From Zoogloea dura (GTDB taxonomy: Bacteria > Pseudomonadota > Gammaproteobacteria > Burkholderiales > Rhodocyclaceae), in contig NZ_JABBGA010000031.1 in the NCBI RefSeq assembly GCF_012927165.1, positions 1 to 45,763 on the forward strand: a DNA stretch of 45,763 nt, read 5' to 3'. The notes beneath the pieces are model-generated. The model worked only from the letters and a program-made list of their open reading frames with translations, was not told the origin of the DNA and made no database searches. This document shows, piece after piece, positions 20,796 to 37,764 of the stretch (its first letter is position 1; each line of letters starts with the position of its first letter). The translations under genes were made by a program, and so were the position numbers.

Positions 20796-23578
20796 TGGCA
20801 GGCCTCGCATTCGGGGTTGTCGATGGCGCAGAAGCGCGGGGCTTCGTCGCCCGTGGGGGCGGGCTCGTCGCGGCCGCCGGATTTCTCCATCTGGCTGGCG
20901 CCCAGGGTGCGCAGGTAGTAGGTGGTCTTGAGGCCACGCAGCCAGGCCAGCTTGTAGATCTCGTCGAGCTTGCGGCCGGACGGTGTGGCCAGGTAGAGGT
21001 TGAGGGACTGGGCCTGGTCGATCCACTTCTGGCGCCGGGCGGCGGCTTCGATCAGCCACACCGGGTCGATCTCGAAGGCGGTGGCGTAGCGGGCCTTGAG
21101 TTCGTCCGGCACCCGGTCGATGCGGGCCAGGGAGCCGTCGAAGTACTTGAGGTCGGCCACCATCACTTCGTCCCACAGGTCGAGGGCCTTGAGGTCGCGC
21201 ACCAGGGCTTCGTTGACCACCGTGAACTCCCCGGACAGGTTGGATTTGACGTAGAGGTTCTGGTAGCCGGGTTCGATGCTGGCGGACACGCCGACGATGT
21301 TGGAGATGGTGGCGGTGGGGGCGATGGCCACGCAGTTGGAGTTGCGCATGCCGTGGCGGGCGATGCGCTCGCGCAGGGCGGCCCAGTCCAGGCGGGCCTC
21401 GCGGTCCACCTCCAGCTGCCCGCCGCGCCCTGCTTCCAGCAGGCCGAGGGAGTCCAGGGGCAGGATGCCGCGGCTCCACAGGCTGCCGTCGAAGCTGCTG
21501 TAGCGGCCGCGCTCGCGGGCCAGTTCGGTGGACGCCCAGTAGGCCTGGTAGCACACCGCCTCCATGGCCCGGTCGGCGAAGTCCACCGCCTCGTGCGAGG
21601 CGTAGGGCAGGCCGAGGGCATACAGGCAGTCGGCAAAGCCCATGATGCCGAGGCCCACCGGGCGGTGCAGCAGGTTGGCCCGGCGGGCCTTCGGGGTGGC
21701 GTAGAAGTTGATGTCCACCACGTTGTCGAGCATGCGCAGGGCGGTGCTGATGGTGCGGGCCAGCTTGTCCATGTCGAGCCGGCCGTCCTTCAGGTGGGCG
21801 GGCAGGTTCACCGAGCCCAGGTTGCACACCGCGGTTTCGTTGTCGGAGGTGTTGAGGGTGATCTCGGTGCACAGGTTGGAGCTATGCACCACGCCCACAT
21901 GCTGCTGCGGCGAGCGCAGGTTGCAGGCGTCCTTGAAGGTGAGCCAGGGGTGGCCGGTCTCGAATAGCATGGTGAGCATGCGCCGCCACAGCTGCACGGC
22001 AGGGATGCGCTTGAACAGGCGCAGCTCTCCGGCGGCGGCCTTGGCCTCGTAGGCGGTGTAGGCGGCCTCGAAGTCGGCGCCGAAGCGCTCGTGCAGGTCG
22101 GGGGTGTCCACCGGCGAGAAGAGGGTCCATTCGGCGTTGTCCATGACCCGCTTCATGAACAGGTCGGGGATCCAGTTGGCGGTGTTCATGTCATGGGTGC
22201 GGCGCCGCTCGTCGCCGGTGTTCTTGCGCAGGTCGAGGAATTCCTCGATGTCCAGGTGCCAGGTCTCCAGGTAGGCGCACACCGCGCCCTTGCGCTTGCC
22301 GCCCTGGTTCACCGCCACGGCGGTGTCATTGACCACCTTGAGGAAGGGGATGACGCCCTGGCTCTGGCCGTTGGTGCCCTTGATGAGGCTGCCGAGGGCG
22401 CGCACCGGGGTCCAGTCGTTGCCCAGGCCGCCGGCGTATTTCTGCAGCAGGGCGTTCTCCTTGACCGCCTGGTAGATGCCTTCCAGGTCGTCCGAGACGG
22501 TGGTGAGGTAGCACGACGAGAGCTGCGGGTGGCGCGTGCCGCTGTTGAACAGGGTCGGCGTGGAGCACATGAAGTCGAAGCTCGAGATCAGGTCGTAGAA
22601 CTCGATGGCGCGGGCCTCCCGGTCGATCTCACCGAGGGCCAGGCCCATCGCGACGCGCATGAAGAAGACCTGCGGCAGCTCGATGCGGCGCCCGTCCATG
22701 TGCAGGAAGTAGCGGTCGTAGAGGGTCTGCAGGCCCAGGTAGCCGAACTGCAGGTCGCGCTCGGGGCGCAGTGCGGCGGCCAGGCGCGGGAGGTCGAACT
22801 CGGCCAGGCGTGGGTCGAGGAGTTCGGCGCCGATGCCCTTGCGGACGAATTCGGGCAGGTAGTCGGCATAGGTGCCGGCCAGTTCGTCCAGCCCGATGCG
22901 GTGGCCCAGCACCTCCCGGCCGAGGCTGGCCAGCAGCAGGCGGGCGGTGACCTGGTTGTAGGCCGGCTCCCGTTCGATCAGGCTGCGCGCGGCGAGGATC
23001 AGGGCCTGCTCCACGTCGGCGAGGGGCACGCCGTCGTAGAGGTTCTTCAGGGCGTGGTCGAGCACGCTCGGGGCCGATACGCCCTCGCCCAGCCCGCTGC
23101 AGGCGGCCTGGCAGGTGCGCAGCAGGGCGGCGCTGTCGAGGGGGATGCGGCGCCCGCCGTCCACCACGTGCAGCACCGTCTGCTCACGGGCCTCGGCCGG
23201 CGCGGCAGCCCGTTCGGCGGCGCGGCGTTCGCGATAGAGCACGTAGGCGCGGGCCACGTCGTGTTCGCCGGAGCGCATCAGGGCCAGCTCCACCTGGTCC
23301 TGGATATCCTCGATGGACACCGTGCCACCGTCGGGCAGGCGCCGGGTCAGGGCCCGCAGCACGGTGTCGGTGAGGCGGCCGACGATCTCGCGCACCCGGG
23401 ACGAGCCGGCGCTGCCGCTGCCCTCGACGGCCAGGAAGGCCTTGCTCATGGCCACGGCGATCTTGTCCGCGTTGAAGGCGACCACGGCCCCGTTGCGGCG
23501 GATGACCTGCAACGCGGCAAGGGTCGGGTCGTGGCTGTCGGGCTGGCTGGTGCTGGGGGGCAGGGCGGTGGCGAGCAA
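20792..23578 (-). CDS. nrdA: Ribonucleotide reductase class I, alpha subunit
   Basis: 928 residues if started at TTG 23578, the best choice: GGAG lies eight bases upstream, whereas in-frame ATGs further up fall inside the cobalamin riboswitch and the next ATG downstream would delete the ATP cone. The ATP-cone (QVIRRNGAVVAFNADKIAVA) is followed by the large-subunit barrel: HPQLSSCYLTTVSDD holds the first redox cysteine, SSNLCTEITLNTSDN the active-site Cys and Glu, AVCNLGSVNL the second redox cysteine. The C-terminus ends CAIDNPECEACQ with the shuttle CxxC. It reduces ribonucleoside diphosphates with NrdB. The cobalamin riboswitch means expression should fall when B12 is plentiful, the pattern seen where a B12-dependent class II enzyme is also encoded. 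Confidence 0.9.
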   Translation of the reverse strand: MLATALPPSTSQPDSHDPTLAALQVIRRNGAVVAFNADKIAVAMSKAFLAVEGSGSAGSSRVREIVGRLTDTVLRALTRRLPDGGTVSIEDIQDQVELALMRSGEHDVARAYVLYRERRAAERAAAPAEAREQTVLHVVDGGRRIPLDSAALLRTCQAACSGLGEGVSAPSVLDHALKNLYDGVPLADVEQALILAARSLIEREPAYNQVTARLLLASLGREVLGHRIGLDELAGTYADYLPEFVRKGIGAELLDPRLAEFDLPRLAAALRPERDLQFGYLGLQTLYDRYFLHMDGRRIELPQVFFMRVAMGLALGEIDREARAIEFYDLISSFDFMCSTPTLFNSGTRHPQLSSCYLTTVSDDLEGIYQAVKENALLQKYAGGLGNDWTPVRALGSLIKGTNGQSQGVIPFLKVVNDTAVAVNQGGKRKGAVCAYLETWHLDIEEFLDLRKNTGDERRRTHDMNTANWIPDLFMKRVMDNAEWTLFSPVDTPDLHERFGADFEAAYTAYEAKAAAGELRLFKRIPAVQLWRRMLTMLFETGHPWLTFKDACNLRSPQQHVGVVHSSNLCTEITLNTSDNETAVCNLGSVNLPAHLKDGRLDMDKLARTISTALRMLDNVVDINFYATPKARRANLLHRPVGLGIMGFADCLYALGLPYASHEAVDFADRAMEAVCYQAYWASTELARERGRYSSFDGSLWSRGILPLDSLGLLEAGRGGQLEVDREARLDWAALRERIARHGMRNSNCVAIAPTATISNIVGVSASIEPGYQNLYVKSNLSGEFTVVNEALVRDLKALDLWDEVMVADLKYFDGSLARIDRVPDELKARYATAFEIDPVWLIEAAARRQKWIDQAQSLNLYLATPSGRKLDEIYKLAWLRGLKTTYYLRTLGASQMEKSGGRDEPAPTGDEAPRFCAIDNPECEACQ

Positions 23579-23580
23579 GG

Positions 23581-23610
23581 CGATTCTCCGAGTTGGGGGG
23601 CGGAGAATCG
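23581..23610 (-). promoter_or_regulatory. Shine-Dalgarno-sequestering hairpin of nrdA
   Basis: A perfect 10-bp inverted repeat, CGATTCTCCG and CGGAGAATCG, around a 10-base loop. On the mRNA strand the 3' arm contains the GGAG ribosome site of nrdA and ends two bases before the TTG start, so pairing would block translation. It is the natural candidate for the riboswitch expression platform. Confidence 0.7.
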
Positions 23611-23744
23611 AGGACCCGGTGGGTGCCACCCGGCAACACGGCGGCTGGCTCCCCTGGCGGGAATGGCAGCCCCGGCGCACGGTGGCGGCGGGACCGCTCC
23701 TCGTTTCAGGGACACCCCGCCCCAAAAGCATTGAAGGAATGGGC

Positions 23745-23915
23745 CATGGCAGGTCTCCTGACTCTCGGGTCCGTGTGTCGTGCCAGCCTTCCCGGAGCGC
23801 ATCCAGTGGCAGTGGGGGCACGAAACTCGCCGATCACAGTTGCGGGGGCAGTGCTGGCATTGAGGCGTGTCGCCTCGCACCAGCTTCCCTTTTCATCCCC
23901 TGTCGGGGAACCAAT
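23745..23915 (-). promoter_or_regulatory. Cobalamin (B12) riboswitch upstream of nrdA
   Basis: Read on the minus strand the conserved cobalamin-aptamer elements occur in order: GGGGATGAAAAGGGAAGCTG near 23902-23883, the B12 box GCCCCCGCAACTGTGATC near 23849-23832, CCACTGG then GGGAAGGCTGGCACGA near 23802-23778, and GTCAGGAGACCTGCC closing P1 at 23763-23748. About 165 bases separate the aptamer from the nrdA start; that spacer ends in the hairpin covering the ribosome site. Within the 589-base gap 23579-24167 the remainder is the thioesterase promoter. Confidence 0.93.
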
Positions 23916-24050
23916 GACGGGGCGGAGTGTAGGAGGGGGGCTGGCGGGCTGTCAAGGATTTTCCCGTATGTAGTGGGTGGGGTGGCTTTGGGGTCAATGG
24001 GTAGTGGGTCGGGAAGGGCTGTGCGCTCGGCCGGAGCAGCGTGCGGCGGG

Positions 24051-24140
24051 TTCGCAAGCTTCGCAAACGCACGGGTTTCCCCTGGAAAATCTTCGCCATT
24101 TCAGTGGCTTCCGGTGTTTTCCGGATGCGTATATTGCGAA
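24051..24140 (+). promoter_or_regulatory. Thioesterase promoter module with PrpR/ScfR-like repeats
   Basis: Starts with TTCGCAAGCTTCGCAAA (24051-24067) and ends with TGCGTATATTGCGAA (24126-24140), which holds a -10-like TATATT. It aligns gaplessly over 90 bases with the prpC promoter (minus 34248-34159) at 62 of 90 positions. The A repeat differs there by one base and the 15-base end is identical. The module ends 27 bases before the thioesterase ATG. Confidence 0.75.
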
Positions 24141-24167
24141 GCGTCTCCTCAACCCCGGTACGCATCC

Positions 24168-24596
24168 ATGACACTTGCTACTCCTTCCACGACGCCACCT
24201 TCCCGCCCGCGCGAGACCGTCTTTGTCGAGATGGTCTTTCCCGATCAGGCCAACCATTACGGCACCTTGTACGGTGGCAATGCACTGGGCCTGCTCGGCA
24301 AGGCGGCCTTCGTCACGGCGACGCGGTTCGCCCGCTGCGCGGTGGTCATGGCGGCCTCCGGGCACGTGGATTTCCATGTGCCGGTGAAGCTGGGCCAGAT
24401 GCTGGAACTGACCGGCCGCATCATCCGTGTCGGGCGCTCGTCGATGAGCGTGGAGGTCAGCGGTATGGCCGAGACCCTGGCCGGCGGGGAGCGCACCCCG
24501 GCCCTGCGGGGGTGCTTCGAGATGGTGGCGGTGGATGGAGAGGGCCGCCCCCGGGCCATCGATCCGGACGACGGGCATCCCGTCCTCCCGACCTGA
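24168..24596 (+). CDS. Acyl-CoA thioesterase, hotdog fold
   Basis: 142 residues from ATG 24168. The core VFVEMVFPDQANHYGTLYGG followed by ALGLLGKAAFVTATRFARCA and GHVDFHVPVKLGQMLELTGR is that of the YciA/BACH-type acyl-CoA thioesterases, cytosolic hexamers that hydrolyse short- to medium-chain acyl-CoA. The frame is open far upstream but that part is antisense to nrdA. Divergent from nrdA and convergent with metE (23 bases apart), it is a single-gene unit. Its promoter is a near copy of the prpC promoter, so a role in controlling propionyl-CoA or related acyl-CoA level, returning CoA when the methylcitrate cycle is loaded, is likely but inferred. No clear Shine-Dalgarno is seen. Confidence 0.85.
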   Translation: MTLATPSTTPPSRPRETVFVEMVFPDQANHYGTLYGGNALGLLGKAAFVTATRFARCAVVMAASGHVDFHVPVKLGQMLELTGRIIRVGRSSMSVEVSGMAETLAGGERTPALRGCFEMVAVDGEGRPRAIDPDDGHPVLPT

Positions 24597-24619
24597 AAGG
24601 CCGGCGGCGGCCTCCGGTG

Positions 24620-26908
24620 TCAGGCTTCCGCTGCTACCTGGCGGCGGACCTCCTGTGCGGCTGCCACCATGTTGCGCAGGGCCGCCTCGGTCTCCGGCCA
24701 GCCCCGGGTCTTCAGGCCGCAGTCCGGATTCACCCACAGGTTGATGGCGGGAATCACGCGGCGGGCCTTGTGCAGCAGTGCCACCATCTCACCTGTATCC
24801 GGCACCCGCGGCGAATGGATGTCATACACGCCCGGCCCGATCTCGTTGGGGTAGCGGAACTCGCCGAAGGCGCCGAGCAGTTCCATGCCGGAACGGCTGG
24901 TCTCGATGGTGATGACGTCCGCGTCCATGGCGGCGATCTCCGGCAGGATGTCGTTGAACTCCGAATAGCACATGTGGGTGTGGATCTGGGTGTCGTCGCC
25001 CACCGCCGACGCGGCAATCCGGAAGGCCCGGCTGGCCCAGGCGAGGTAGTCCCGCCAGCCGGCGCGACGCAGGGGCAGGCCTTCGCGGATCGCCGGCTCG
25101 TCGATCTGGATGATGCCTATCCCGGCCTGCTCCAGGTCGGCAACCTCGTCGCGGATCGCCAGGGCGATCTGCAAGGCCGTGTCGGCGCGGGGCTGGTCGT
25201 CGCGGACGAAGGACCATTGCAGCAGGGTGACCGGTCCGGTGAGCATGCCCTTCATCGGGCGAGGCGTCAGGCTCTGGGCAAAGCATGTCCAGGCCACGGT
25301 CATGGGGCGGGGGCGGGATACGTCGCCGAAGATGATCGGCGGCTTCACGCAGCGCGAGCCGTAGGACTGGACCCAGCCGTTGGCCGAGAAGGCATAGCCG
25401 TCGAGGCGTTCGCCGAAGTACTCGACCATGTCGTTGCGCTCGGCCTCGCCATGCACCAGCACGTCCAGGCCGAGGGCCTCCTGTTTGCGCACGGCCAGGG
25501 TGATCTCTGCCTCCATGGCGGCCTGGTAGGCGCCGCCGCCGATCTCGCCGCGCTTGTGGGCGGCCCGGGTGGCACGGATCTCGCGGGTCTGGGGGAAGGA
25601 TCCGATGGTGGTGGTCGGCAGCGGAGGCAACCCGAAGCGCGCCCGCTGGCGGGCCTGGCGCTGGGGGAAGGGGGCGGCGCGCCGATCGGCGTCGGGGCCC
25701 AGGCTGCGCAGGCGCGCGGCAACCGCCGGATTGCTCACCCGGGGGCTGGCGCGGCGGTCGGCCAGGTGCTGGCGTGCGATGGCCAGCTCGTTCCGCACGC
25801 TGTCTTCACCGTCTGTCAGGGCGCGCTTGAGCAGGGCCAGCTCGTCCAGCTTCTCGGTGGCAAAGGCCAGCCAGTGACTCAGTTCGCTGTCGATGCCACT
25901 GTGCGCGCCGGCCTCCCCGGCCAGGCTGACCGGAACATGCAGCAGCGAGCAGGAGGGGGCCAGCCACAGGGTGTCACGGCGTTCCCGCAGGGGTTTGAGG
26001 GTGGCCAGGGCGCGGTCCGGGTCGCAGCGCCAGATGTTGCGGCCGTCGATGATGCCTACCGAGAGTTGCTTGTGGGCCGGCAGCCAGTCGGCCACCCGGA
26101 GGACCTCGTCGGGCGCGCGCACGGCATCAATGTGGAGGCCGTCCACCGGCAACCGGCAGGCCAGTTGCAACTGGTCGGCGAGCGGCGAGAAGTAGGTGGC
26201 CAGCATCAGGCGTGCGCCGGCTGATGCCAGGGCGATGTAGGCGGCTTCGAAGGCGGCCCGCCAGGGGCCGGGCAGGTCCAGGCCCAGGATCGGCTCGTCC
26301 ACCTGGACCCATTCCGCGCCTTCGGCCTTGAGGCGCTGCAGGATCTGCCCATACACCGGCAGCAAGTGTTCCAGCAGCGCGAGGCGGTCGAAGGGCTGGC
26401 CGCCCCTTTCCTTGCCCAGCCACAGGAAGCTGAGCGGCCCGAGGAGGGTCACCTTGACCCGGTGGCCCAGGGCCCGGGCTTCGGCGACCTCGGCGAAGAG
26501 GCGTCCGGAGGCAAGCCGGAAACGGGTCTCGGGCAGGAACTCCGGGACCAGGTAGTGGTAGTTGGTGTCGAACCACTTGGTCATCTCCAGGGCCGGATGG
26601 CCTACGCCGCGGGCCAGTGTGAAATGCCTCTCCAGTTCGTCCTCGCGGCCCGAGAAGCCGAAGCGCGGGGGCTCGCAGCCGAGCAGCTGGATGTGGCCGG
26701 CGACGTGGTCGTAGAAGGCAAAGTCGCCCACGCTGACGCAGTCCAGGCCGGCGTCCCGCTGCAGGGCCCAGTGGCGTGCCCGCAGGTCGCGGCCGATGGC
26801 TTCGAGGGCGGGTCGGTCGAGTTCGCCGCGCCAGTGTGCTTCGAGGGCGAACTTCAACTCGCGCTGGGCGCCGATGCGGGGAAAACCGAGGATGTGGGTG
26901 TGGATCAT
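24620..26908 (-). CDS. metE: Cobalamin-independent methionine synthase
   Basis: 762 residues, the usual MetE length. The N-terminus [20 protein letters not shown] and the C-terminal catalytic half with [40 protein letters not shown] and [12 protein letters not shown] are typical. Zinc ligands are present in [10 protein letters not shown] (His and Cys) and NPDCGLKTR (Cys730). It transfers a methyl group from 5-methyltetrahydropteroyl-glutamate to homocysteine without B12. The divergent metR lies 101 bases away. I looked for a second cobalamin riboswitch in front of metE and found none; control should be by MetR. Confidence 0.95.
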
Positions 26909-26957
26909 GGAAGCTCCGGGGAAACAGATCTAAGGGCTTGTCATGATTGGCGCAGGG

Positions 26958-26970
26958 TGATTATTATTCA
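26958..26970. promoter_or_regulatory. Putative MetR operator in the metE-metR gap
   Basis: TGATTATTATTCA differs by one base from the TGAA-N5-TTCA consensus of MetR and is in the middle of the AT-rich divergent promoter region. A second perfect repeat, ATTAGC-AGA-GCTAAT (26994-27008), ends one base before the metR ATG. Confidence 0.5.
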
Positions 26971-27009
26971 AACGATTAATTCTAAGAAAAAGCATTAGCA
27001 GAGCTAATA

Positions 27010-27951
27010 ATGGCGACTTCCATCCTTGAACTGCGTCACCTGCGCACGCTGTTCGCGTTGCGGGCCACCGGCAGCCTCACCCGGGCGGCCGATCTGCTGA
27101 GCCTGACCCAGTCGGCCCTGTCCCAACAGGTGCGGCAGCTGGAGGATCGCTACGGGGGGGCGCTCTTCGAGCGGAAGTCGGCCCCCCTGGTGTTCACGGC
27201 CCTGGGCGCGCGCCTGCTGCGCCTGGCGGACGAGGTCCTGCCGGGCGTGGACGAAGCCGAGCGTGACCTGGCCCGCCTGGCTTCGGGCCGGGCCGGCAGC
27301 CTGCGCATCGTGGTGGAGTGCCATACCTGCTTCGACTGGCTGATGCCGGCCATGGACAGCTTCCGCAGCCGCTGGCCGGAGGTGGAGCTGGACATCGTTT
27401 CGGGATTCCACCCGGACCCGGTGGGCTTGCTCCACCAGGGCCGGGCCGACCTGGCCATCGTGGCCGAGCCGGAAGCCGACCCGGCCATTGCCTACCATCC
27501 GCTGTTCCGCTTCGAGATCGTCGCGCTGCTGGCCAATGGCCATCCGCTGGCGACCCACTCCTATCTGGAGGCGGCGGATTTTGCGGGGCAGACGCTGATC
27601 ACCTACCCGGTGCCGGACGAGATGCTCGATGTGGTGCGCTGCGTGCTGGAGCCGGCCGGAGTGCGTCCGGCGCGCCGCACCACCGAGCTGACCGTGGCCA
27701 TGCTGCAACTGGTGGCAAGCGGCCGGGGCCTCGCCGCGCTGCCCCTGTGGGCGGTGCAAGGCTATCTGGATCGCAAGTACGTGCTGGCACGTCCGATCGG
27801 AGCTACCGGACTGACCGGCCGTCTGCATGCCGCCACCCTGACCAGCGCGGCCGGACGGCCCTATATGGCCGACTTTGTCAGCGTGATGCGGGAGCGCAGC
27901 TTCGCCGAGCTGGCCGGCATCGAGCTGCTCCGCGAGGATGGGGCGCCCTGA
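27010..27951 (+). CDS. metR: MetR, LysR-type activator of methionine synthesis
   Basis: 313 residues. The N-terminal winged helix (ELRHLRTLFALRATGSLTRA, SLTQSALSQQVRQLEDRYGG) and the effector domain (LRIVVECHTCFDWLMPAMDS) follow E. coli MetR closely, including the ECHxC stretch. MetR activates metE and related genes with homocysteine as co-inducer. The ATG 27010 is chosen from homology; it has little Shine-Dalgarno and an inverted repeat abuts it. Divergent from metE, the standard arrangement. Confidence 0.92.
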   Translation: MATSILELRHLRTLFALRATGSLTRAADLLSLTQSALSQQVRQLEDRYGGALFERKSAPLVFTALGARLLRLADEVLPGVDEAERDLARLASGRAGSLRIVVECHTCFDWLMPAMDSFRSRWPEVELDIVSGFHPDPVGLLHQGRADLAIVAEPEADPAIAYHPLFRFEIVALLANGHPLATHSYLEAADFAGQTLITYPVPDEMLDVVRCVLEPAGVRPARRTTELTVAMLQLVASGRGLAALPLWAVQGYLDRKYVLARPIGATGLTGRLHAATLTSAAGRPYMADFVSVMRERSFAELAGIELLREDGAP

Positions 27952-27960
27952 CCCTGGTCC

Positions 27961-28098
27961 TCAGACCGCAGCGGCCTTGCTCCAGGGGGCGTGCATGACC
28001 TTCCGGGCGAGCTGAAGGCGCCACCCGGTGAAGCAGTCCTCCAGCACGCTGCGGACGAGCAGCGTGAAGCCGTCGCGGGGCGGCGGGGTTTCATGGCT
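27961..28098 (-). pseudogene. Short orphan reading frame, possible gene remnant
   Basis: On the minus strand a frame of about 45 codons ends at TGA 27961 and reads ETPPPRDGFTLLVRSVLEDC then FTGWRLQLARKVMHAPWSKA. Nearly all of its third positions are G or C, as in real genes here, but no ATG, GTG or TTG with a ribosome site opens it; the only in-frame start is an internal GTG that would leave 28 codons. It lies between the prp terminator and the metR stop. It may be the end of a decayed gene or a very small protein. Family unknown. Confidence 0.3.
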
Positions 28099-28105
28099 TT
28101 TGAAT

Positions 28106-28169
28106 AAAAAAGCCGGCCGGGCCCTAGTCCTGGAGAGACTAGCTAGGGAGAGAAGAGAGAAGGCCCGGC
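28106..28169 (-). terminator. Intrinsic terminator of the prp operon
   Basis: On the minus strand the arms GCCGGGCC-type repeats (28162-28169 with 28116-28123) enclose an inner CTAGTC/GACTAG stem (28124-28129 with 28137-28142), and the outer stem runs into TTTTTT at 28111-28106. It begins 30 bases after the prpB stop. Confidence 0.75.
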
Positions 28170-28198
28170 GGCGAAAAGCTTATGGAGCGGCAGGGCCG

Positions 28199-29059
28199 TC
28201 AGGCGTAGTGCTTCTCCAGCGCGTCCCAGTCGGGTTTGCCCACCAGGCGCTGGCGCTCGGCGAAGGGGGTGACCAGGGCCGGATCCTCATCCAGGCGGCG
28301 GGTGTCGCGCAGGACGCCCAGGGCCTTCTGCATGCCGGCCAGGGCGCCCTGCAGCGCGGCGTTGGCATACAGGACAAAGCCATAGCCGAGCTGTCCCAAC
28401 TGATCGGCATCGAAGATCGGCGTGCGGCCGCCGATGACCATGTTCATCAACTGGGGGCGGGGGAGCTGCTGCGGCAGCGCGCGGATCTCCTCGGCGCGGG
28501 TCACCGCCTCGACGAAGAGGATGTCGGCGCCTGCCTCGGCGAACTTCAGGGCGCGCTCCACGGCGGCCTCGAAGCCCTGGGTGGCGCAGGCGTCGGTGCG
28601 CGCCATGATGAGCAGGTCGCCGTCCTGGCGGGCATCCACGGCGGCCTTGATCTTGCTCACGGCCTCCTCGGTGGGGATCACGTCCTTGCCCGAGAAATGG
28701 CCGCAGCGCTTGGGCGCCACCTGGTCTTCGAACTGGATGCAGTCGGCCCCTGCGCGTTCCAGGGTGCGCACGGTGTGGCGCACGTTGAGGGCGTTGCCGA
28801 AGCCGGTGTCGGCATCGACGATGAGGGGCAGGCTCACCGCGTCGCGGATGCGCGCCGTGTGGTCGGCGATGTCCGCCAGGCCCATGAAGCCCTGGTCGGG
28901 CAGGCCGAAGCACATGTTGGTGACGCCAGCGCCGGTGATGTAGATGGCTTCAAAGCCGAGGTCTTCGATGACCCGGGCCGACAGGGCGTTGAAGGCGCCC
29001 GGCACGAGGACGCCGCGGCGGGCGTCGGCCAGGGCGCGGAGTGTCTGGCGAGTGGACAT
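28199..29059 (-). CDS. prpB: Methylisocitrate lyase-like protein (isocitrate lyase/PEP mutase family)
   Basis: 286 residues from ATG 29059, with CAGGAAA upstream; a further in-frame ATG at 29110 lies before the prpF stop and is rejected. The fold signature is clear: YITGAGVTNMCFGLPDQGFM, VDADTGFGN (81-89), FEDQ (110-113), and the mobile lid KRCGHFSGK (117-125) with catalytic Cys119. As the last gene of prpC-acnD-prpF it should split 2-methylisocitrate into pyruvate and succinate. The lid differs from the KRCGHRPNK form of enterobacterial and many betaproteobacterial PrpB and looks closer to the wider isocitrate lyase/oxaloacetate decarboxylase branch, so the substrate range may differ. Confidence 0.75.
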   Translation of the reverse strand: MSTRQTLRALADARRGVLVPGAFNALSARVIEDLGFEAIYITGAGVTNMCFGLPDQGFMGLADIADHTARIRDAVSLPLIVDADTGFGNALNVRHTVRTLERAGADCIQFEDQVAPKRCGHFSGKDVIPTEEAVSKIKAAVDARQDGDLLIMARTDACATQGFEAAVERALKFAEAGADILFVEAVTRAEEIRALPQQLPRPQLMNMVIGGRTPIFDADQLGQLGYGFVLYANAALQGALAGMQKALGVLRDTRRLDEDPALVTPFAERQRLVGKPDWDALEKHYA

Positions 29060-29106
29060 GGGGTTTCCTGAAAGCGGTGAGGGGGCGGGTGGCAGGGGCG
29101 CGGGAT

Positions 29107-30312
29107 TCACAGGCCGTCTCCGGGGACGCGTACCCAGCCTTCCATCAGCGTGCGGGCGCTGCGGCTCATGAGGGCGCGGGTGACCTGCCAGGCGCCGTGC
29201 TCGCAGCGGGCTTCGGCGCCCACGCGGAGGGTCCCGGAGGGGTGGCCGAAGCGCACGCTGCGGCGTTCGCCGCCGCCGGCGGCGCGGTTCACCAGGGTGC
29301 CGGGGATGGCCGCCGCCGCGCCGATGGCCACCGCGGCGGTGCCCATCATGGCGTGGTGCAGCTTGCCCATCGACAGGGCGCGGACCAGCAGGTCCACCTC
29401 GTCGGCCGCCACCGTCCGGCCGCTGGAGGCGAGGTAGGCGGTGGGGGGGGCGACGAAGGCGATCTTGGGGGTGTGCTGGCGCCGGGCGGCTTCGTCCAGG
29501 CTGGCGATCAGGCCCATGCGCAGGGCGCCGTGGGCGCGGATCGCCTCGAAGCGGGCCAGTGCCGGGGCGTCGCCGTTGATGGTGTCCTGCAGCTCGGTGC
29601 CGGTGTAGCCCAGGGTCGCGGCGTCCAGGAAGATCACCGGGATGCCGGCGTTGATCAGGGTCGCCTGGAAGCGGCCCACCCCGGGCACGTCCAGCTCGTC
29701 GAGCAGATTGCCGGTGGGGAACAGGGCGCCGCCGTCACCGTCGCTGTCGGCGGCGGGGTCGAGGAACTCAAGCTCCACCTCGGCGGCCGGAAAGGCCACG
29801 CCGTCCAGTTCGAAGTCGCCCGTCTCCTGGACCTCGCCTTCGCGGACCGGCACGTGGGCGATGATGGTCCGGGCGATGTTGGCCTGCCAGATGCGCACCG
29901 TGCACAGGCCGTCGCGGGGGATGCGGGCAGGGGCCACCAGCCCGGCGCTGATGGCGAAGGCGCCGACCGCGGCGGACAGGTTGCCGCAGTTGCCGGACCA
30001 GTCCACGAAGGGCGTGTCGATGGAGACCTGCCCGAACAGGTAGTCCACATCGTGGTCGGGCCGTTCGCTGGCCGCCACGATGACAGCCTTGCTGGTGCTG
30101 GAGGTGGCTCCGCCCATGCCATCGATCTGCTTGCCGTAGGGGTCGGGGCTGCCGATCACCCGCAGCAGGAAACGGTCCCGGGCGCTGCCGGGCCGGCGGC
30201 ACGGCTCCGGCACGTCCTGCAGGCGGAAGAACACGCCCTTGCTGGTGCCGCCCCGCATGTAGGTGGCGGGGACGCGGAGCTGGGGAGCGTATGGATGCGC
30301 AGTGGCGTTCAT
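29107..30312 (-). CDS. prpF: PrpF, aconitate isomerase-like accessory protein of AcnD
   Basis: 401 residues from ATG 30312, one base after the acnD stop. Typical PrpF sequence: VPATYMRGGTSKGVFFRLQD at the N-terminus, DGMGGATSSTSKAVIV, DWSGNCGNLSAAVGAFAI with the Asn-Cys-Gly site of the diaminopimelate-epimerase-like fold, and GKLHHAMMGTAAVAIGAAAA near the end. PrpF isomerises the trans/cis product so that AcnD can complete conversion of 2-methylcitrate. It is always found with AcnD and replaces PrpD in this pathway type. Confidence 0.93.
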   Translation of the reverse strand: MNATAHPYAPQLRVPATYMRGGTSKGVFFRLQDVPEPCRRPGSARDRFLLRVIGSPDPYGKQIDGMGGATSSTSKAVIVAASERPDHDVDYLFGQVSIDTPFVDWSGNCGNLSAAVGAFAISAGLVAPARIPRDGLCTVRIWQANIARTIIAHVPVREGEVQETGDFELDGVAFPAAEVELEFLDPAADSDGDGGALFPTGNLLDELDVPGVGRFQATLINAGIPVIFLDAATLGYTGTELQDTINGDAPALARFEAIRAHGALRMGLIASLDEAARRQHTPKIAFVAPPTAYLASSGRTVAADEVDLLVRALSMGKLHHAMMGTAAVAIGAAAAIPGTLVNRAAGGGERRSVRFGHPSGTLRVGAEARCEHGAWQVTRALMSRSARTLMEGWVRVPGDGL

Positions 30313-30313
30313 G

Positions 30314-32959
30314 TCAGACCGATTCCTTCTCGGTGGTGGCCAGGAAATCCTGGGCGAAGCGTTGCAGGACACCGCCCGCAGCATAGATGGAGACGTCTTC
30401 TGCGGTGTCGAGGCGGCAGGTGACCGGGACTTCCAGCGTATCGCCCGCGGGCCGCCGGATCACCAGGGTGAGGTCGGCGCGGGGCGCAGGCTCGCCGAGG
30501 ACGTCGAAGGTCTCGGTGCCGTCGATGCCCAGGGTCAGGCGGGTGGTGCCCGGCTTGAACTCCAGCGGCAGCACGCCCATGCCCACCAGGTTGCTGCGGT
30601 GGATGCGCTCGAAGCCCTCCGCGACGATGGCTTCGACGCCCGCCAGGCGCACGCCCTTGGCCGCCCAGTCGCGGGAGGAGCCCTGGCCGTAGTCGGCGCC
30701 GGCGATGATGATCAGGGGCTGCAGGCGCAGCATGTAGGTCTCGATGGCTTCCCACATGCGCATCACCGTGCCCTCCGGCTCGACCCGCGCCAGGGAGCCC
30801 TGGCGCACGCTGCCGTCCGGATTGCGGACCATTTCGTTGCGCAGGGTCGGGTTGGCGAAGGTGGCCCGCTGGGCGGTCATGTGGTCGCCCCGGTGGGTGG
30901 CGTAGGAGTTGAAGTCCTCCTCCGGCAGGCCCATTCTCGCCAGGTATTCGCCGGCGGCGGAGTCGGGCAGGATGGCGTTGGAGGGTGACAGGTGGTCGGT
31001 GGTGATGTTGTCCGGAAGCACCGCCAGCGGACGCATCCCTTGCAGCGTGCGCTCGCCGGCCAGCACGCCTTCCCAGTAGGGTGGGCGGCGGATGTAGGTG
31101 GAGCGGGGCCGCCAGGCATACAGGGGGTCAGGCGCGGCGGTCACCTTGCCAAGGTCGAACATCGGGCCATACACCTCGCGGAACTGCTCGGGCTTCACGC
31201 AGGCCGCCACGATGGCGTCGATCTCCGTGTCGGACGGCCACAGGTCGGCGAGGGTGATCGGGCGGCCGTCGAGGCCGTGGCCCAGCGTGTCGCGCTCGAT
31301 GTCGAAGCGCACCGTGCCGGCCAGGGCGTAGGCCACCACCAGGGGCGGGGAGGCCAGGAAGGCCTGCCGGGCATGGGGGTGGATGCGCCCGTCGAAGTTG
31401 CGGTTGCCCGACAGGACGGCGGTGGCGTAGAGGCCGCGTTCGACGATCTCCTGCTGGATTTTCGGGTCCAGGGCGCCGGACATGCCGTTGCAGGTGGTGC
31501 AGGCGTAGCCGACGATGCCGAAGCCGAGCTTCTCGAGCTCCGGCAGCAGGCCGGCTTCTTCCAGGTAGAGGCGGGCGACCCGGGAGCCCGGGGCGAAGGA
31601 GGTCTTGACCCAGGGCTTGCGGACCAGCCCCAGGGCATTGGCCTTCCTGGCCAGCAGGCCGGCCGCCACCAGGTTGCGCGGGTTGGAGGTATTGGTGCAG
31701 CTGGTGATGGCGGCGATGATGACCGCACCGTCGGGGAGCAGGCCTTCACGCTCTTCGGCCAATGCCTGCTCCAGTCCGACGGCGATGCCTCTTTCGGCGA
31801 GCTGTGCCGTGGGCAGGCGCTTGTGCGGATTGGACGGGCCGGCCATGTTGCGCTCGACGCCGGCCAGGTCGAACTCCAGCACCCGTTCGTATTCGGCGTG
31901 CGCCAGAGCGTCGGCCCACAGGCCGCTGGTGCGTGCGTAGTGTTCGACCAGCGCCACCTGTTCAGGGGCGCGGCCGGTGAGCCGCAGGTAGGCGAGGGTT
32001 TGTGCGTCGATGTAGAACATCGCCGCGGTGGCGCCATACTCCGGGCACATGTTGGAGATGGTGGCCCGGTCGCCGACCGACAGGCTCGCCGCGCCGTCGC
32101 CGAAGAACTCCAGCCAGGCACCCACGACCTTCTGCCTGCGCAGGAATTCGGTGAGGGCCAGGACGATGTCGGTGGCGGTGATGCCCGGCTGCCGCCGGCC
32201 CGTGAGGCGCACGCCGACGATGTCGGGCAGGCGCATCATCGAGGCGCGGCCGAGCATCACCGACTCGGCCTCCAGCCCGCCCACGCCGATGGCGATCACG
32301 CCCAGGGCATCCACATGGGGGGTGTGGCTGTCGGTCCCCACGCAGGTGTCCGGAAAGGCCACCGACCGGCCGTTTCCGTCGGGCTGGACCTGGACCACCG
32401 GTGACATCTTCTCCAGATTGATCTGGTGCATGATGCCGTTGCCGGCGGGGATCACATCCACGTTCCGGAAAGCGCGGCGGGTCCATTCGATGAAGTGGAA
32501 GCGGTCTTCGTTGCGGCGCTCTTCCACCGCCCGGTTGCGGGCGAAGGCATCCGGATCGTCGCCGCCATATTCCACGGCCAGCGAGTGGTCGACGATCAGC
32601 TGGGTGGGCACCACCGGGTTGATCCGCGACGGATCACCGCCTTGGTCGGCGATGGCGTCGCGCAGGCCGGCCAGGTCCACCAGGGCGGTCTGGCCCAGGA
32701 TGTCGTGGCATACCACGCGGGCGGGATACCAGGGGAAGTCCAGGTCCTGCCGCTGCCAGGCGATCTGCGCCAGTGCATCGCCGAGCAGGGCCGGGTCGCA
32801 GCGGCGGACCAGTTGCTCGGCCAGCACGCGGGCGGTGTAGGGCAGGCTGTCCCAGGCGCCGGGGCGCACGTCGTCGATGGCCGCACGGGCGTCGAAATAG
32901 TCCAGCGAGGTGCCGGGCAGGGGCCGGCGGTAAGCGGTGTTCATGGCGGTGCGGCTCAT
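30314..32959 (-). CDS. acnD: AcnD, Fe/S-dependent 2-methylcitrate dehydratase
   Basis: 881 residues from the ATG overlapping the prpC stop (ATGA). An aconitase-superfamily protein with cluster cysteines in [15 protein letters not shown] and [15 protein letters not shown], the latter in the AcnD form. Other landmarks are [57 protein letters not shown] and [20 protein letters not shown]. It dehydrates 2-methylcitrate to 2-methyl-trans-aconitate, using an oxygen-sensitive 4Fe-4S cluster. Lies between prpC and prpF, the usual acnD-prpF neighbourhood. Confidence 0.93.
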
Positions 32960-34110
32960 TGGCGCTGCTCGATGGGCACGAAGACCCGGTCTTCCGGGCC
33001 CACGTAATGGGCACTGGGGCGGATGATCTTGTTGTCGATGCGTTGTTCGATGATGTGGGCGGCCCAGCCCGACGTGCGGGCGATCACGAAGAGCGGTGAG
33101 AACATGGCCGTCGGCACGCCCATCATGTGATAACTGACGGCGCTGAACCAGTCCAGGTTGGGGAACATGTTCTTGGCGTCCTGCATCACCGCTTCCAGGC
33201 GCTCGGCGATGTCGAACATCCGGGTCGAACCGGCATCGACGGAGAGACGCCGGGCCACTGCCTTGATCACCGCATTGCGCGGGTCGGACACGGTATACAC
33301 CGGATGGCCGAAGCCGATCACCACTTCGCCGCCGGCCACCCGGCGGCGGATGTCCGTCTCGGCATCATCGGGCGTGTCGTAACGCTTCTGGATCTCGAAG
33401 GCGACCTCGTTGGCGCCCCCGTGCCGGGGGCCGCGCAGCGCGCCGATGGCGCCGGTGATGGCCGAATAGATGTCCGAGCCGGTGCCGGCGATGACGCGGC
33501 CGGCGAAGGTGGAGGCATTGAACTCGTGTTCCGCGTAGAGGATCAGCGAGGTGTGCATGGCGCGCTCCCACGGGGCCGGGGGTTTCTCGCCATGAAGCAG
33601 GTGGAGGAAATGGCCGCCGATCGATTCGTCGTCGGTCTCCACCTGGATGCGCTGGCCCTTGGTGGACCAGTGATACCAGTAGAGCAGCATGGAGCCCAGG
33701 GAGGCCAGCAGGCGGTCGGCAATGTCACGGGCGCCAGGCAGGTTGTGATCGTCCTTCTCGGGCAGGACGCAGCCGAGGGCAGACACGCCGGTACGCATCA
33801 CGTCCATCGGATGGGCGCTGGCGGGCAGCCGTTCGAGGGCTTCGCGGACGCTCGCAGGGAGGCCGCGCAAGGCCTTCAGGCGGGCCTTGTAGGCGCGCAG
33901 TTCGGCGGCGCCGGGCAGCTTGCCGTGCACCAGCAGGTGGGCGACTTCCTCGAATTCACAGGCTTCGGCGATATCGAGAATGTCGTAGCCGCGGTAGTGC
34001 AGATCATTGCCGCTGCGGCCCACCGTACACAGGGCCGTATTGCCCGCCGTGACGCCGGACAGGGCGACGGACTTCTTGGGCTTGAACGGCGTTTCGCGGG
34101 TCATCGTCAT
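32956..34110 (-). CDS. prpC: 2-Methylcitrate synthase
   Basis: 384 residues from ATG 34110, nine bases after AAGGAG; the frame upstream crosses the promoter. Citrate-synthase fold with the PrpC signatures [49 protein letters not shown] and the C-terminal [20 protein letters not shown] and WAAHIIEQR. It condenses propionyl-CoA with oxaloacetate. It is the first gene of the prpC-acnD-prpF-prpB operon, placed divergent to its regulator. Confidence 0.94.
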
Positions 34111-34158
34111 CGTGGGAGTCTCCTTCGGTGGAATTGTGCTTGCGTTTGCCTCGTTGGG

Positions 34159-34248
34159 TTCGCAATATACGCAACCCGGATTGTCCGTAACTGACTGAAT
34201 TGGCGATGATTTGTGAATCCCGTGCCGTAAATTTGCGAATCTTGCGAA
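34159..34248 (-). promoter_or_regulatory. prpC promoter module with PrpR/ScfR-like repeats
   Basis: Read towards prpC it begins with TTCGCAAGATTCGCAAA (34248-34232) and ends with TGCGTATATTGCGAA (34173-34159). Forward-strand TTCGCAATATACGCAA spans 34159-34174. These direct and inverted TTCGCAA units resemble the TTTGCAAA-type sites of the RamB/ScfR family. The A repeat lies 31 bases from the prpR start, so prpR may be autoregulated from the same site. The module is repeated in front of the thioesterase at 24051-24140. Confidence 0.75.
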
Positions 34249-34279
34249 GATTCTCGGCGCCCGCCAGGAAGGACCTGCC

Positions 34280-35716
34280 ATGAGAAAGACCTTCATGGGC
34301 GTGCGCCTGCGCCGCCTCCGCGAGGAACGCGGGCTGACCCAGGTGGCCCTGGCCCAATTGCTCGGGATCTCGCCCAGCTATCTCAACCAGATCGAGCAGA
34401 ACCAGCGCCCGCTGACGGTGCAGGTGCTGCTCAAGCTGAGCGCGGCCCTGGGCGTGGATGTGCAGCGCTTTTCCGAGGACGACGAGGCGCGCCTGGTGGC
34501 CGATCTGCGCGATGTCTTCGGGTCTGGCGCGGTGCTGGCGGGACAGGCGGAGAGCGTGTCCCAGGCGGAGATCCGCGAGCTGGCGGCAAGCATGCCGGCG
34601 GTGGGGCGCACGCTGGTGGCCCTGGAGCGGCGCTGCCGCGACGCGGAGGAGCGGGCCGCCGCCTTTGCCGCCCGGCTGGGCGAGGATCGTGGCCAGGCCC
34701 TGCGCACCCAGCCCATGCCCTACGAGGAGGTGAGGGATTTCTTCTACGCCCGTCACAACCACGTGGCCGAGCTGGACGACCTGGCCGAGCGGCTCTTCGA
34801 TGCCTGGTCGCTGCAGCCGGGCGAGACCGGGAGCGGCCTGGCCATCCGCCTCGAGAGCGTGCATGGCATCCGGGTGGTGCGCGACGAGCGGGCCTTCGGC
34901 GAGGGCGACGCGGGAACCCTGCGCCGTTTCGACAAGGGGGAGCGGGTGCTGCGCCTGTCCCCCCTGCTGGCGCCGGGGCAGCAGGCCTTCCAGATGGCCA
35001 CCCAGCTGGCCTTCCTGGAGGCGGAGGAGGCCATCGAGGGGCTGGCGGCGCAGGCGGTGTTACGCAGCGAGGAGGCGCGCCGCCTCGCACGCATCGGTCT
35101 GGCCAACTACTTCGCGGGGGCCCTGGTGCTGCCCTACCGGCGCTTTCTCGACAGTGCCGAGCGCCTGCGCTACGACATCGACCTGCTGGGCAGGCGTTTC
35201 GGTACCGGCTTCGAGACCGTCTCCCACCGCCTGTCCACCCTGCAGCGCCCGGGGGCGTGCGGAGTGCCTTTCTTTTTTGTGCGGGTGGATCGGGCCGGCA
35301 ACATCTCCAAGCGCCAGTCCGCCACCGACTTCCATTTCTCGCGGGTGGGCGGGACCTGCCCCCTGTGGAATGTGTACGAGGCCTTTGCCCAGCCAGGGCG
35401 CATCCTGACCCAGCTGGCGAGCATGCCGGATGGCCGCACTTACCTGTGGGTGGCGCGCACCGTCTCCCATGGGCGGGGGGGTTACGGGGTGCCGGGCAAG
35501 ACCTTTGCGGTGGGGCTGGGCTGCGACCTGCAGCATGCGCCGCGCCTCACCTATGCCAAGGGGCTCAAGCTCGACGATCCGGGGGCACCGACACCCATCG
35601 GCGCCGGATGCAAGGTGTGCGAGCGGGTCGGCTGTCCGCAGCGGGCCTTTCCGTCCGCGGGCAGCCGCCTGGATATCGATGAGAACAGCAGCCGTTTCGA
35701 GCCCTACGGGGGCTAG
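34280..35716 (+). CDS. prpR: Short-chain fatty acyl transcriptional regulator (ScfR/RamB family), PrpR
   Basis: 478 residues from ATG 34280, with AGGAAGGA upstream. The Xre-type helix-turn-helix fills residues 8-62 ([40 protein letters not shown]). The middle holds the peptidase M78-like region ([20 protein letters not shown] and [20 protein letters not shown]), and the C-terminal domain ends with the Cys cluster [16 protein letters not shown]. Family members such as RamB, and the ScfR proteins next to prp genes, respond to acyl-CoA or methylcitrate-cycle intermediates. It is not the sigma-54-dependent enterobacterial PrpR. Divergent from prpC and the obvious candidate for the TTCGCAA sites. 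Confidence 0.9.
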
Positions 35717-35736
35717 CGGGCCGCCACCGTGCCTGC

Positions 35737-37764
35737 TCAGTCGAGCCGGAAGCGGCCGATGTCCTGCTCCAGGTGGGCGGCCAGGTCCTTCAGGTGGCCG
35801 GCCGTGCGGGCGGTGGCCTGGGAGTGGGCGCTGTTCTGCTCGGCCATCTGGGCGATGCCTTCCACCCGCTGGGCGATCTCGGTGCTGGCGGCGCTCTGTT
35901 CCCTCAGGGCGTCGCTGATCTCGTTGATGGAGTCCATCGTGCGGCCCGCCCCGTCGCGGATCTGGCTGATGGCGTCACCCGCCTGGCCGGCCCGCTCGAC
36001 CCCTTCGCCGACCCGGGTCACGCCTTCTTCCATGGCCTGCACCGCGTCGCGGGCGCCGTTCTGGATGCCGCCTATCATGTCGGCGATCTCGCGGGTGGAT
36101 TGGGCTGTGCGTTCGGCCAGCTTGCGCACCTCGTCGGCCACCACGGCAAAGCCGCGGCCCTGTTCGCCGGCCCGGGCGGCCTCGATGGCGGCATTGAGGG
36201 CGAGCAGGTTGGTCTGGTCGGCGATCTCCTTGATGGTGCCGACGATGGCCGAGATCTTCGAGGAGTGGGCACCCAGCTTGCGCACGATGTCGGCGGAGCG
36301 GCGCACCACCTCGGAGATGCTGTTGATGTCGGTGAGGGTCTGGCGCACGACCTCGCTGCCCTCGCTGGACAGGCGCCCGGCCTCGCCGGCTTCGGACTGG
36401 GCGTCCCGGGCGTTGCTCGAGATGTGGTTGATGCCGACCGTCATCTCCTCCACGGCGGCGGCCATGGCGGTGGCGGCATCGCTCTGCCGGGTGGAGCCCT
36501 GGGCGACCTGGTGGGAGGCCCCGGCCAGTTCGTCGGCGGCTGTCGACAGCTTGTCGGCAGTCTGGCGGGCACCGCGCAGCAGGGTGGCGATGGAGCTGCT
36601 CATGCGGTTGAAGGCGCCGGCAATGCGCTGCAGCTCGTCGCGGGTGTCCAGCTCGACTTTGACCGTCAGCTGGCCGTCGGCGACCTGCTCGGCGCTGCGG
36701 GCCAGCGTGGCTACTGCTCCGCCGATGGCCGCGGCAACCGCCGTCAGCAGGTAGATGACGAGCAGGGACACCCCTGCCGCTGCGGTGATGGAGACGGTGA
36801 AGCTGCGCAGCAGGCGCGCCTCGCGCCCGGCCAGGAGCTTCTCCAGTTCGGGCAGAAAGCTGTCGAAGGCGTTGCGGTAAAGGGCGTCGATGGTGGCGGT
36901 GGAGCGTGTCACCCACTGATCGGGGGAGGTCTCGTAGCGGCCTGCCAGGATGTCGCTGCGGATGGTCTGGTTCAGCCAGGCGATCTGCGGCCCGGTCTCC
37001 TTCTCGAGGCGGCTGACGCTGGCGTGGATGTCGGGATGGCCTTCGCTGGCCTTCAGCAGCTTGCGGATCACGTAGCGGTAGCGCGATTCGCTGGTGACCA
37101 GCAGGGCGGTGAGTTCTTCCCGGTCCTTCTCCGAGGCGGCCTTGGAGCTCAGCAGATGATTGCCCATGGCGCGCATGCGGCCGATGCGCTCGATCACATC
37201 GGGCAGGTTGGCCAGGGTGGCGTCGATCATGAAGAAGCTGTCGGCCTCCATGTCGAGCAGCAGGCCCGAGGTGGTCAGCAGGCTGTCCACGTGCTCGAGC
37301 ACCTGCTCGATGAGTTTGCGGTGGGCCAGACGATTGGCGGTGGCCTCCATCTTCCCGCCTTCGCTCACCAGGTTGTTCCATGCCTTGCTGATCTCCTGCG
37401 CGGCGGGAAGGACGGGCTGGAGCGCGGGTGCCTCGCGCAGAAGGGCTACCGCCTGCTCGAGCGCAGCCTGTGCCTGGTGCGCGCTGGCGTCGGCCCGCGG
37501 CTGCAGGTCGCCGCGGCCGGACAGAATGCTCACCATCTGGCCGCGGTGCTGCTGGATGGCTTGCAGGGCGTGCAGGGTCGGCACGACCACCCTGAGTCCG
37601 GCGAGCTCGTCGCGGGTGGTGCGCACTTCGCTCCACAGCTTGAAGCCGAAGGCGCTGCCGAGGCCACCCAGGGCCAGCACCAGGAACAGACTGATCAGGG
37701 TGAACTTGCCGCGGAAACTCATGCGGTTCAGCACGCGGACGGCGGGGGTGAGGAAGGTGTTCAT
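35737..37764 (-). CDS. Methyl-accepting chemotaxis protein
   Basis: 675 residues from ATG 37764 ([20 protein letters not shown]). Membrane helix 1 is near residues 21-40, a periplasmic domain of about 280 residues follows (rich in helices, resembling nitrate/nitrite-sensing or 4-helix-bundle types; ligand unknown), helix 2 is near 321-348, then HAMP (about 350-398). The signalling tip [20 protein letters not shown] and [20 protein letters not shown] is intact. It ends in GRFRLD with no CheR-binding pentapeptide. It shares its direction with the c-di-GMP operon but 142 bases separate them, so it may be its own unit. Confidence 0.92.

Follow-up and report, generated by a model that had tools for sequence, protein, structure and literature searches.

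We analysed a 45,763-nucleotide contig of Zoogloea dura (NZ_JABBGA010000031.1; hereafter the window, from genome G000), which carries a methylcitrate operon in the order prpC-acnD-prpF-prpB, a divergent gene for an ScfR-type regulator (mccR/prpR) and, approximately 10 kb from the operon and between nrdA and metE, a gene for a 4HBT (hotdog) protein of the kind annotated as an acyl-coenzyme A (acyl-CoA) thioesterase, with an operator of its own. A first-pass annotation had proposed that one 90-base promoter module stands before both the hotdog gene and prpC, and the match was confirmed: positions 24051-24140 of the plus strand (copy A) align without a gap to positions 34248-34159 of the minus strand (copy B) with 62 of 90 bases identical, the end blocks and a central TCGCCA-TTCAGT stretch are common to both copies as described there, and the order relative to the genes is the same, TGCGTATATTGCGAA adjoining both the hotdog gene (ATG at 24168) and prpC (ATG at 34107). 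Copy B is the divergent intergenic region and its far end faces the regulator (ATG at 34280); on the far side of copy A there is no regulator but instead nrdA behind a cobalamin riboswitch. Coordinates are collected in Table 1.

The runner-up 90-mer of the window on either strand reached 45 identities for both queries and corresponds to this pair taken on the opposite strand. Because the operator search model takes in both window copies, a separate position matrix was built from 41 modules with both copies held out; it scored the window sites at 97.2 and 88.1, while no score above -15.3 arose in 20 Markov-1 random windows. A scan of the organism's own genome at an expectation value (E) of 0.1 or below returned exactly two operator matches, copy A (E 1.6e-15) and copy B (E 3.4e-17).

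Table 1. Positions of the genes and control elements discussed (window coordinates, except for the last row, which gives locus coordinates).
Feature	Position	Strand	Evidence or remark
142-residue 4HBT/hotdog protein ('thioesterase')	24168..24596	+	N29 kept; catalytic Asp position 44 = Gly; K45
mccR/prpR, ScfR family, 478 residues	34280..35716	+	helix-turn-helix (HTH) + M78-like + ScfRs C-terminal domain; C360, C444-x2-C447-x4-C452, Y148
prpC, 2-methylcitrate synthase	32956..34107	-	NF009006 707 bits (cut-off 550)
acnD, Fe/S 2-methylisocitrate dehydratase	30314..32959	-	TIGR02333 1698 bits (cut-off 1420)
prpF, 2-methylaconitate isomerase	29107..30384 (open reading frame limit; family match from residue 34)	-	TIGR02334 740 bits (cut-off 441)
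prpB, phosphoenolpyruvate mutase/isocitrate lyase family; by position methylisocitrate lyase	28199..29110 (open reading frame limit; start uncertain)	-	
Operator copy A	24051..24140	- (left-to-right box order; predicted promoter fires to +)	matrix + profile search
Copy A boxes	left 24125-24140; CACTGAA core; degenerate middle box; right 24051-24067	-	sequence
Operator copy B, between prpC and mccR, divergent	34159..34248	+	matrix + profile search
Copy B boxes	left 34159-34174; middle ~34200-34217; right 34232-34248 (TTTGCGAA-T-CTTGCGAA)	+	sequence
Cobalamin riboswitch upstream of nrdA, adjoining copy A	23731-23931	-	Rfam RF00174 114.6 bits; window's only Rfam match
GntR genes behind modules	L274:2774-3373; L275:3145-4080; L276:2161-2784; L278:2190-3101		genomes G016, G129, G303, G302

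In an alignment of 43 modules, from which near-copies (more than 75% alike at equal length), the modules of L172 and L128 and those outside 88-92 base pairs (bp) had been dropped, the operator consists of three paired boxes of the TTTGCGAA type at nearly fixed spacing. The right box has the consensus TTTGCGAA-n-TTTGCGAA and reads TTTGCGAA-n-CTTGCGAA in both window copies, each 8-mer being imperfect relative to TTTGCAAA, and both copies thus show the layout of two TTTGCAAA-type 8-mers one base apart. The footprint given for mycobacterial PrpR in the part of PMC3420887 that describes it covers two such 8-mers, TTTGCAAA and TTTGCgAA, one base apart. As described there, the mycobacterial PrpR/prpDC system (ScfR/IsaR family) resembles the window in regulator family, cluster cysteines, divergent layout and tandem 8-mers one base apart, and differs from it in that the window boxes are mostly TTTGCGAA and form three paired elements that together span a nearly constant 90 bp, that acnD-prpF replaces prpD in the window operon and that a second operator serves the hotdog gene. 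The RamB class 2 operator of Paracoccus denitrificans, as presented in sections of PMC10370305, likewise belongs to an ScfR regulator and has two near-identical boxes that are both required for activation, but these lie upstream of the glyoxylate operon with an 18-bp spacer, unlike the three paired boxes over 90 bp in the window. The left box contains TATATT, a -10-like hexamer, and at 20 of the 29 loci at which start-codon spacing was read, out of 52 with a hotdog homologue (L137-L199, mostly Comamonadaceae), the in-frame ATG of the hotdog gene follows 1-3 bases past that box, a spacing that would fit a -10 element inside the left box and a leaderless hotdog mRNA.

The occurrence of the operator followed that of the regulator. 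Among 80 named mccR loci (L125-L204, the best 80 among the matches listed, from Alpha- and Betaproteobacteria), a module of 88-92 bp lies upstream of the regulator at 77; a simple two-anchor scan gave other lengths at L153, L155 and L182, and the left box of L172 matches at only 8 of 15 positions. Of the 296 genomes of the family sample, 28 have the regulator (E <= 1e-60), all 28 of these have the operator (E <= 0.001) and 29 have it overall, the single match among the 268 regulator-free genomes being weak and partial (E 4e-4). Within the genus sample of 23 Zoogloea genomes, the operator was found in all nine with a full-length regulator and, among the 14 others, only in G012 as a partial match (E 0.03). 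Two genomes without a full-length regulator, G006 (C7:920316) and G007 (C276:2737), carry a left-box-like TTCGCAATAGACGCA with one mismatch. The 90-bp element thus appears to be an old, widely conserved operator of the ScfR-type MccR/PrpR regulators and no private duplication; such an operator for the whole regulator group would let the methylcitrate regulon be predicted from genome sequence.

Placement between the regulator and its target operon holds for copy B and does not hold for copy A, nor for the split operators of G187, G180 and G150, where prpC and the regulator lie on different contigs with an operator at each. Extra operators are present in G129, G016 and G302; in Rhodocyclus (G129) one operator precedes the hotdog gene and another lies between a GntR gene and the regulator. 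A module copy is followed by a GntR-family gene in four genomes (Table 1), and this GntR regulator is possibly a further member of the MccR regulon. In Thauera sp. Sel9 (G230) two tandem operators separate prpC from the regulator, the one closer to the first gene and the other to the second (L280, local 3037-3280). A rule that would match each box to one promoter was sought in the split operators and dropped, since the first Rhodocyclus operator, before the hotdog gene, does not conform and the sets are small and related; the middle box tended to be weak in its second half in regulator-only copies and in the hotdog-only copy of the window, and the left box tended to be weak in prpC-only copies.

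The regulator itself matched its three Pfam domains above cut-off (PF09856, 234.9 bits; PF06114, 78.6; PF01381, 61; corresponding to ScfRs C-terminal, M78/IrrE-like and HTH_3 domains), and its closest solved structures are those of mycobacterial PrpR (448.7 bits to PDB 6cyy). It is the only ScfR match in its own genome. The ScfR groups and motifs were reportedly defined by Carter and Alber in 2015. Four cysteines of a 4Fe4S cluster (C360, C444, C447 and C452; C-x2-C-x4-C plus one) are conserved in 82 of 82 regulators, and the position corresponding to residue 155 of MtPrpR, which according to the relevant part of PMC6765138 selects the acyl ligand and is His in RamB, is aromatic in 81 of the 82 (Phe in 50, Tyr in 31). 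With Y148 the window regulator is of the aromatic (PrpR) rather than the His (RamB) kind, and against the RamB equivalog NF038139 it scored 595.1 bits, short of the curated cut-off of 700. MccR is the literature name of this ScfR group in Proteobacteria, as used in the portion of PMC10370305 concerned.

The hotdog gene is linked to the methylcitrate genes well beyond the window. In four of the nine regulator genomes of the genus (G005, G013, G014 and G017) it heads the operon and the module separates it from the regulator, and a homologue lies inside the fetched mccR locus at 52 of the 80 named loci, directly divergent from the regulator at 42 of them (24 of 27 loci in Alphaproteobacteria, 25 of 49 in Betaproteobacteria and 3 of 4 unclassed have the homologue). 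This linkage upholds the proposal that the thioesterase-like gene is tied to propionyl-CoA metabolism. Linkage of a thioesterase gene to mccR is already published for Paracoccus denitrificans, where PMC10370305 tables prpB, prpC, prpD, an 'acyl-CoA thioesterase' (Pden_1349) and a putative mccR (Pden_1350) together as Pden_1346-1350; in that table the thioesterase is merely listed beside mccR, whereas the window gene lies 10 kb off with its own operator. In G000 and in its near relative G011 (Zoogloea sp. UWPOB_ZOOG1) the operator-prpC junction lacks the hotdog gene, which is found elsewhere behind its own operator, and when the promoters of orthologous genes were examined the module was found before the gene in all six genus genomes with an orthologue. 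The first-pass annotation had called the gene an orphan; it is rather a displaced member of the methylcitrate operon, and because the displaced gene retained a full-length operator, its co-regulation with the methylcitrate genes is well supported by sequence comparison. Operator distribution and operon linkage likewise favour the common control by the ScfR-type regulator that had been suggested. Given the place of the hotdog gene in the operon elsewhere and the published Paracoccus linkage, common control was most likely inherited, the window showing a displaced member that retained its operator.

We therefore consider it highly probable that the 90-bp module is the operator and promoter of a methylcitrate regulon, bound by the predicted MccR, and that copy A keeps the displaced hotdog gene in that regulon. 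MccR loaded with propionyl-CoA would occupy the boxes and switch a promoter whose -10-like TATATT sits inside the left box, and at copy B it would also control its own gene. The hotdog gene is usually first in the operon, between the operator and the next mcc gene; in the lineage of the window an mccR and a 5' part of prpC that both look Thauera-like occupy the native site of the operon, and copy A, as a second full-length operator, would hold the hotdog gene in the regulon.

What the hotdog protein does is a separate question. Its 4HBT hotdog fold is indicated by Pfam, by a structural model (predicted local distance difference test score, pLDDT, 88.9) and by its best PDB matches, the acyl-CoA hydrolases 2eis and 1vpm. 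With YciA/ACOT thioesterases (2eis, 1vpm and 2gvh) it has in common the fold and the P(D/E)xxNHxGTL(F/Y)GG loop with its Asn, and this active-site Asn29 is kept in 51 of 53 homologous domains, a set that includes one half of the double-hotdog protein at L202 and a remote homologue (38%) at L204. In contrast to those enzymes, the position of the catalytic Asp (Asp44 of Haemophilus influenzae YciA and Asp213 of mouse ACOT7, in the passage of PMC2698920 that names them) is occupied in the 53 domains by Gly (27), Ser (22) or Ala (4) and never by Asp or Glu. The Asp is present in 23 of 23 readable distant hotdog paralogues of the genus (19 + 5 = 24 loci, all but L061 spanning the position), one of them a double hotdog with Gly in its second half. 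Against the YciA equivalog NF007970 the window protein reached 37 bits, under the cut-off of 162. The protein is not decaying, because the rest of the pocket loop is conserved. Double-hotdog proteins (14 of 14 read) have Asp in the first half, Gly or Ala in the second and an adjacent Lys in both, and it is the Asp-less second half, as in 2gvh-like proteins, that the window protein and its mcc-linked group match; judged by open reading frame length, 51 of the 52 mccR-locus homologues have a single domain, the remaining one being that of L202 (Filomicrobium). The hotdog protein is thus probably not an ordinary thioesterase but a stand-alone equivalent of the Asp-less half of a double-hotdog enzyme, and the annotation 'acyl-CoA thioesterase' in propionate operons becomes questionable for a protein without the catalytic residue of its family.

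Several roles can be weighed on this basis. A role in propionyl-CoA handling that involves acyl-CoA binding or is atypical in some other way is tentatively ranked slightly ahead of a hydrolase, because the protein equals the half of a double-hotdog enzyme that lacks the catalytic Asp. Somewhat more speculative is the specific proposal that a conserved pseudo-thioesterase heads the methylcitrate operon in many Alpha- and Betaproteobacteria, where it would bind propionyl-CoA or a related CoA ester without hydrolysis, buffering it or passing it to PrpC or MccR; if true, a pseudo-thioesterase would be important enough to keep a full-length MccR operator through rearrangement of the operon in Zoogloea. 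The CoA-releasing safety valve of the first-pass annotation, in which the protein would hydrolyse propionyl-CoA and release CoA once the methylcitrate cycle reaches saturation, draws on the fold and its hydrolase neighbours, the retained Asn, a regulon in common with propionyl-CoA breakdown and the L202 homologue with Asp in its other half, but it is not borne out by an active site that lacks the Asp throughout the 53 domains while the paralogues keep it; activity is doubtful, though a substitute residue could serve, and we regard a CoA-releasing hydrolase role as unlikely. A mixed oligomer, in which the protein would lend its Asn in trans to an Asp-bearing partner as the halves of double hotdogs are thought to do in cis, accords with the residue pattern of those 14 proteins, but a search of the window's genome (E <= 0.001) found no double-hotdog, Asp-bearing partner and only two more distant hotdog relatives (32% identity), which makes this arrangement improbable.

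A possible origin of the split arrangement was sought in the regulator, prpC and acnD. In a regulator tree of 30 rows, with 52 of the 80 named loci left out, the window regulator clusters with Thauera and Pseudothauera (support 100/99), and a single Zoogloea clade for the regulator was rejected (approximately unbiased test, p-AU 0.0056). Its identity is 79% to two Thauera and 67% to three other Zoogloea; for acnD, which is clearly Zoogloea-like, the values are 76% and 84-85%, respectively. In the sliding comparison, made against three of the seven other Zoogloea, prpC residues 61-180 are 90-92% identical to Thauera versus 82-83% to Zoogloea and residues 181-240 are 88% versus 95%, which places the switch near codon 180; over residues 1-60 and past residue 240 the two identities differ little. 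The hotdog gene is absent from the three Thauera loci and the Pseudothauera locus. These observations fit a scenario in which a Thauera-like segment replaced the native regulator-operator-hotdog-prpC' stretch while the original hotdog gene survived with its operator beside nrdA, though operator B has no visible Thauera likeness and the order of these events is deduced rather than seen.

Two gapless copies within 10 kb might instead reflect a recent duplication within the genome, the 90 bases standing before the hotdog gene only by chance. Comparison of G000 with G011 led us to reject this candidate: both copies stand at the same genes in G011, and A matches A at 83 of 90 positions and B matches B at 71, whereas A matches B at only 62 (59 within G011), which places the copies before the split of the two species. 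Conservation of copy A (83/90) also exceeds that of the 101 bases immediately upstream (75/101), although the riboswitch stretch farther on is preserved at 93/100. Moreover, 62 of 90 marks an old shared operator rather than a recent duplication because the modules of other Zoogloea match either copy about equally (57-62 of 90). Of the duplicated or co-selected control proposed earlier, shared control is supported and recent duplication is very improbable. Still less credible is that the module serves as a regional promoter of a general kind (of nrdAB or metE, for instance) and is not methylcitrate-specific. Copy A does have nrdA on one side and the hotdog gene on the other, and G016 has an extra operator beside metE, but operator occurrence tracks the regulator across genomes, nrdA is served by a cobalamin riboswitch of its own, and behind the G016 operator stands a GntR regulator gene pointing away from metE.

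A number of observations weigh against the interpretation of the module as a methylcitrate operator that retained a displaced hotdog gene. The operator model was trained on loci of at least 6 of the 28 regulator genomes (G000, G005, G102, G129, G230 and G302) and on both window copies, an overlap that favours co-occurrence, and the held-out test covers the window only. No hotdog orthologue was found in three of the nine regulator genomes of the genus (G010, G016 and G019), and 28 of the 80 named loci, some on short contigs, show no homologue; the gene is dispensable, judging by these absences. The second half of the middle box of copy A matches at 5 of 8 positions, equal to the lowest value among 77 divergent modules, and because of this weak box copy A may respond differently from copy B. 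One of the 82 regulators has His at the ligand-selecting position. The likeness of copy A to other Zoogloea modules is only about equal to that of copy B, so that only gene order suggests the direction of the move. Finally, in a hotdog tree built from the window protein, two genus proteins and 23 of the 52 homologue-bearing loci, the nearest relative of the displaced protein outside G011 is that of Rhodocyclus (91/87), and an outside source for it is conceivable.

The methylcitrate operon stands in a neighbourhood of B12 independence. Its neighbours in the window (19668-36000) are metE/metR and nrdAB, and among the 80 named mccR loci metE was found at 38, nrdA or nrdB at 18 and both at 13. A connection of the methylcitrate operon with lack of the B12-dependent route was considered and rejected, as methylmalonyl-CoA mutase family genes are present in 21 of the 23 genus genomes irrespective of the regulator, and the two genomes without them are incomplete (80% and 72%). 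Cobalamin riboswitches were found at 6 of 8 mccR loci that had been picked non-randomly, 11 riboswitches in total.

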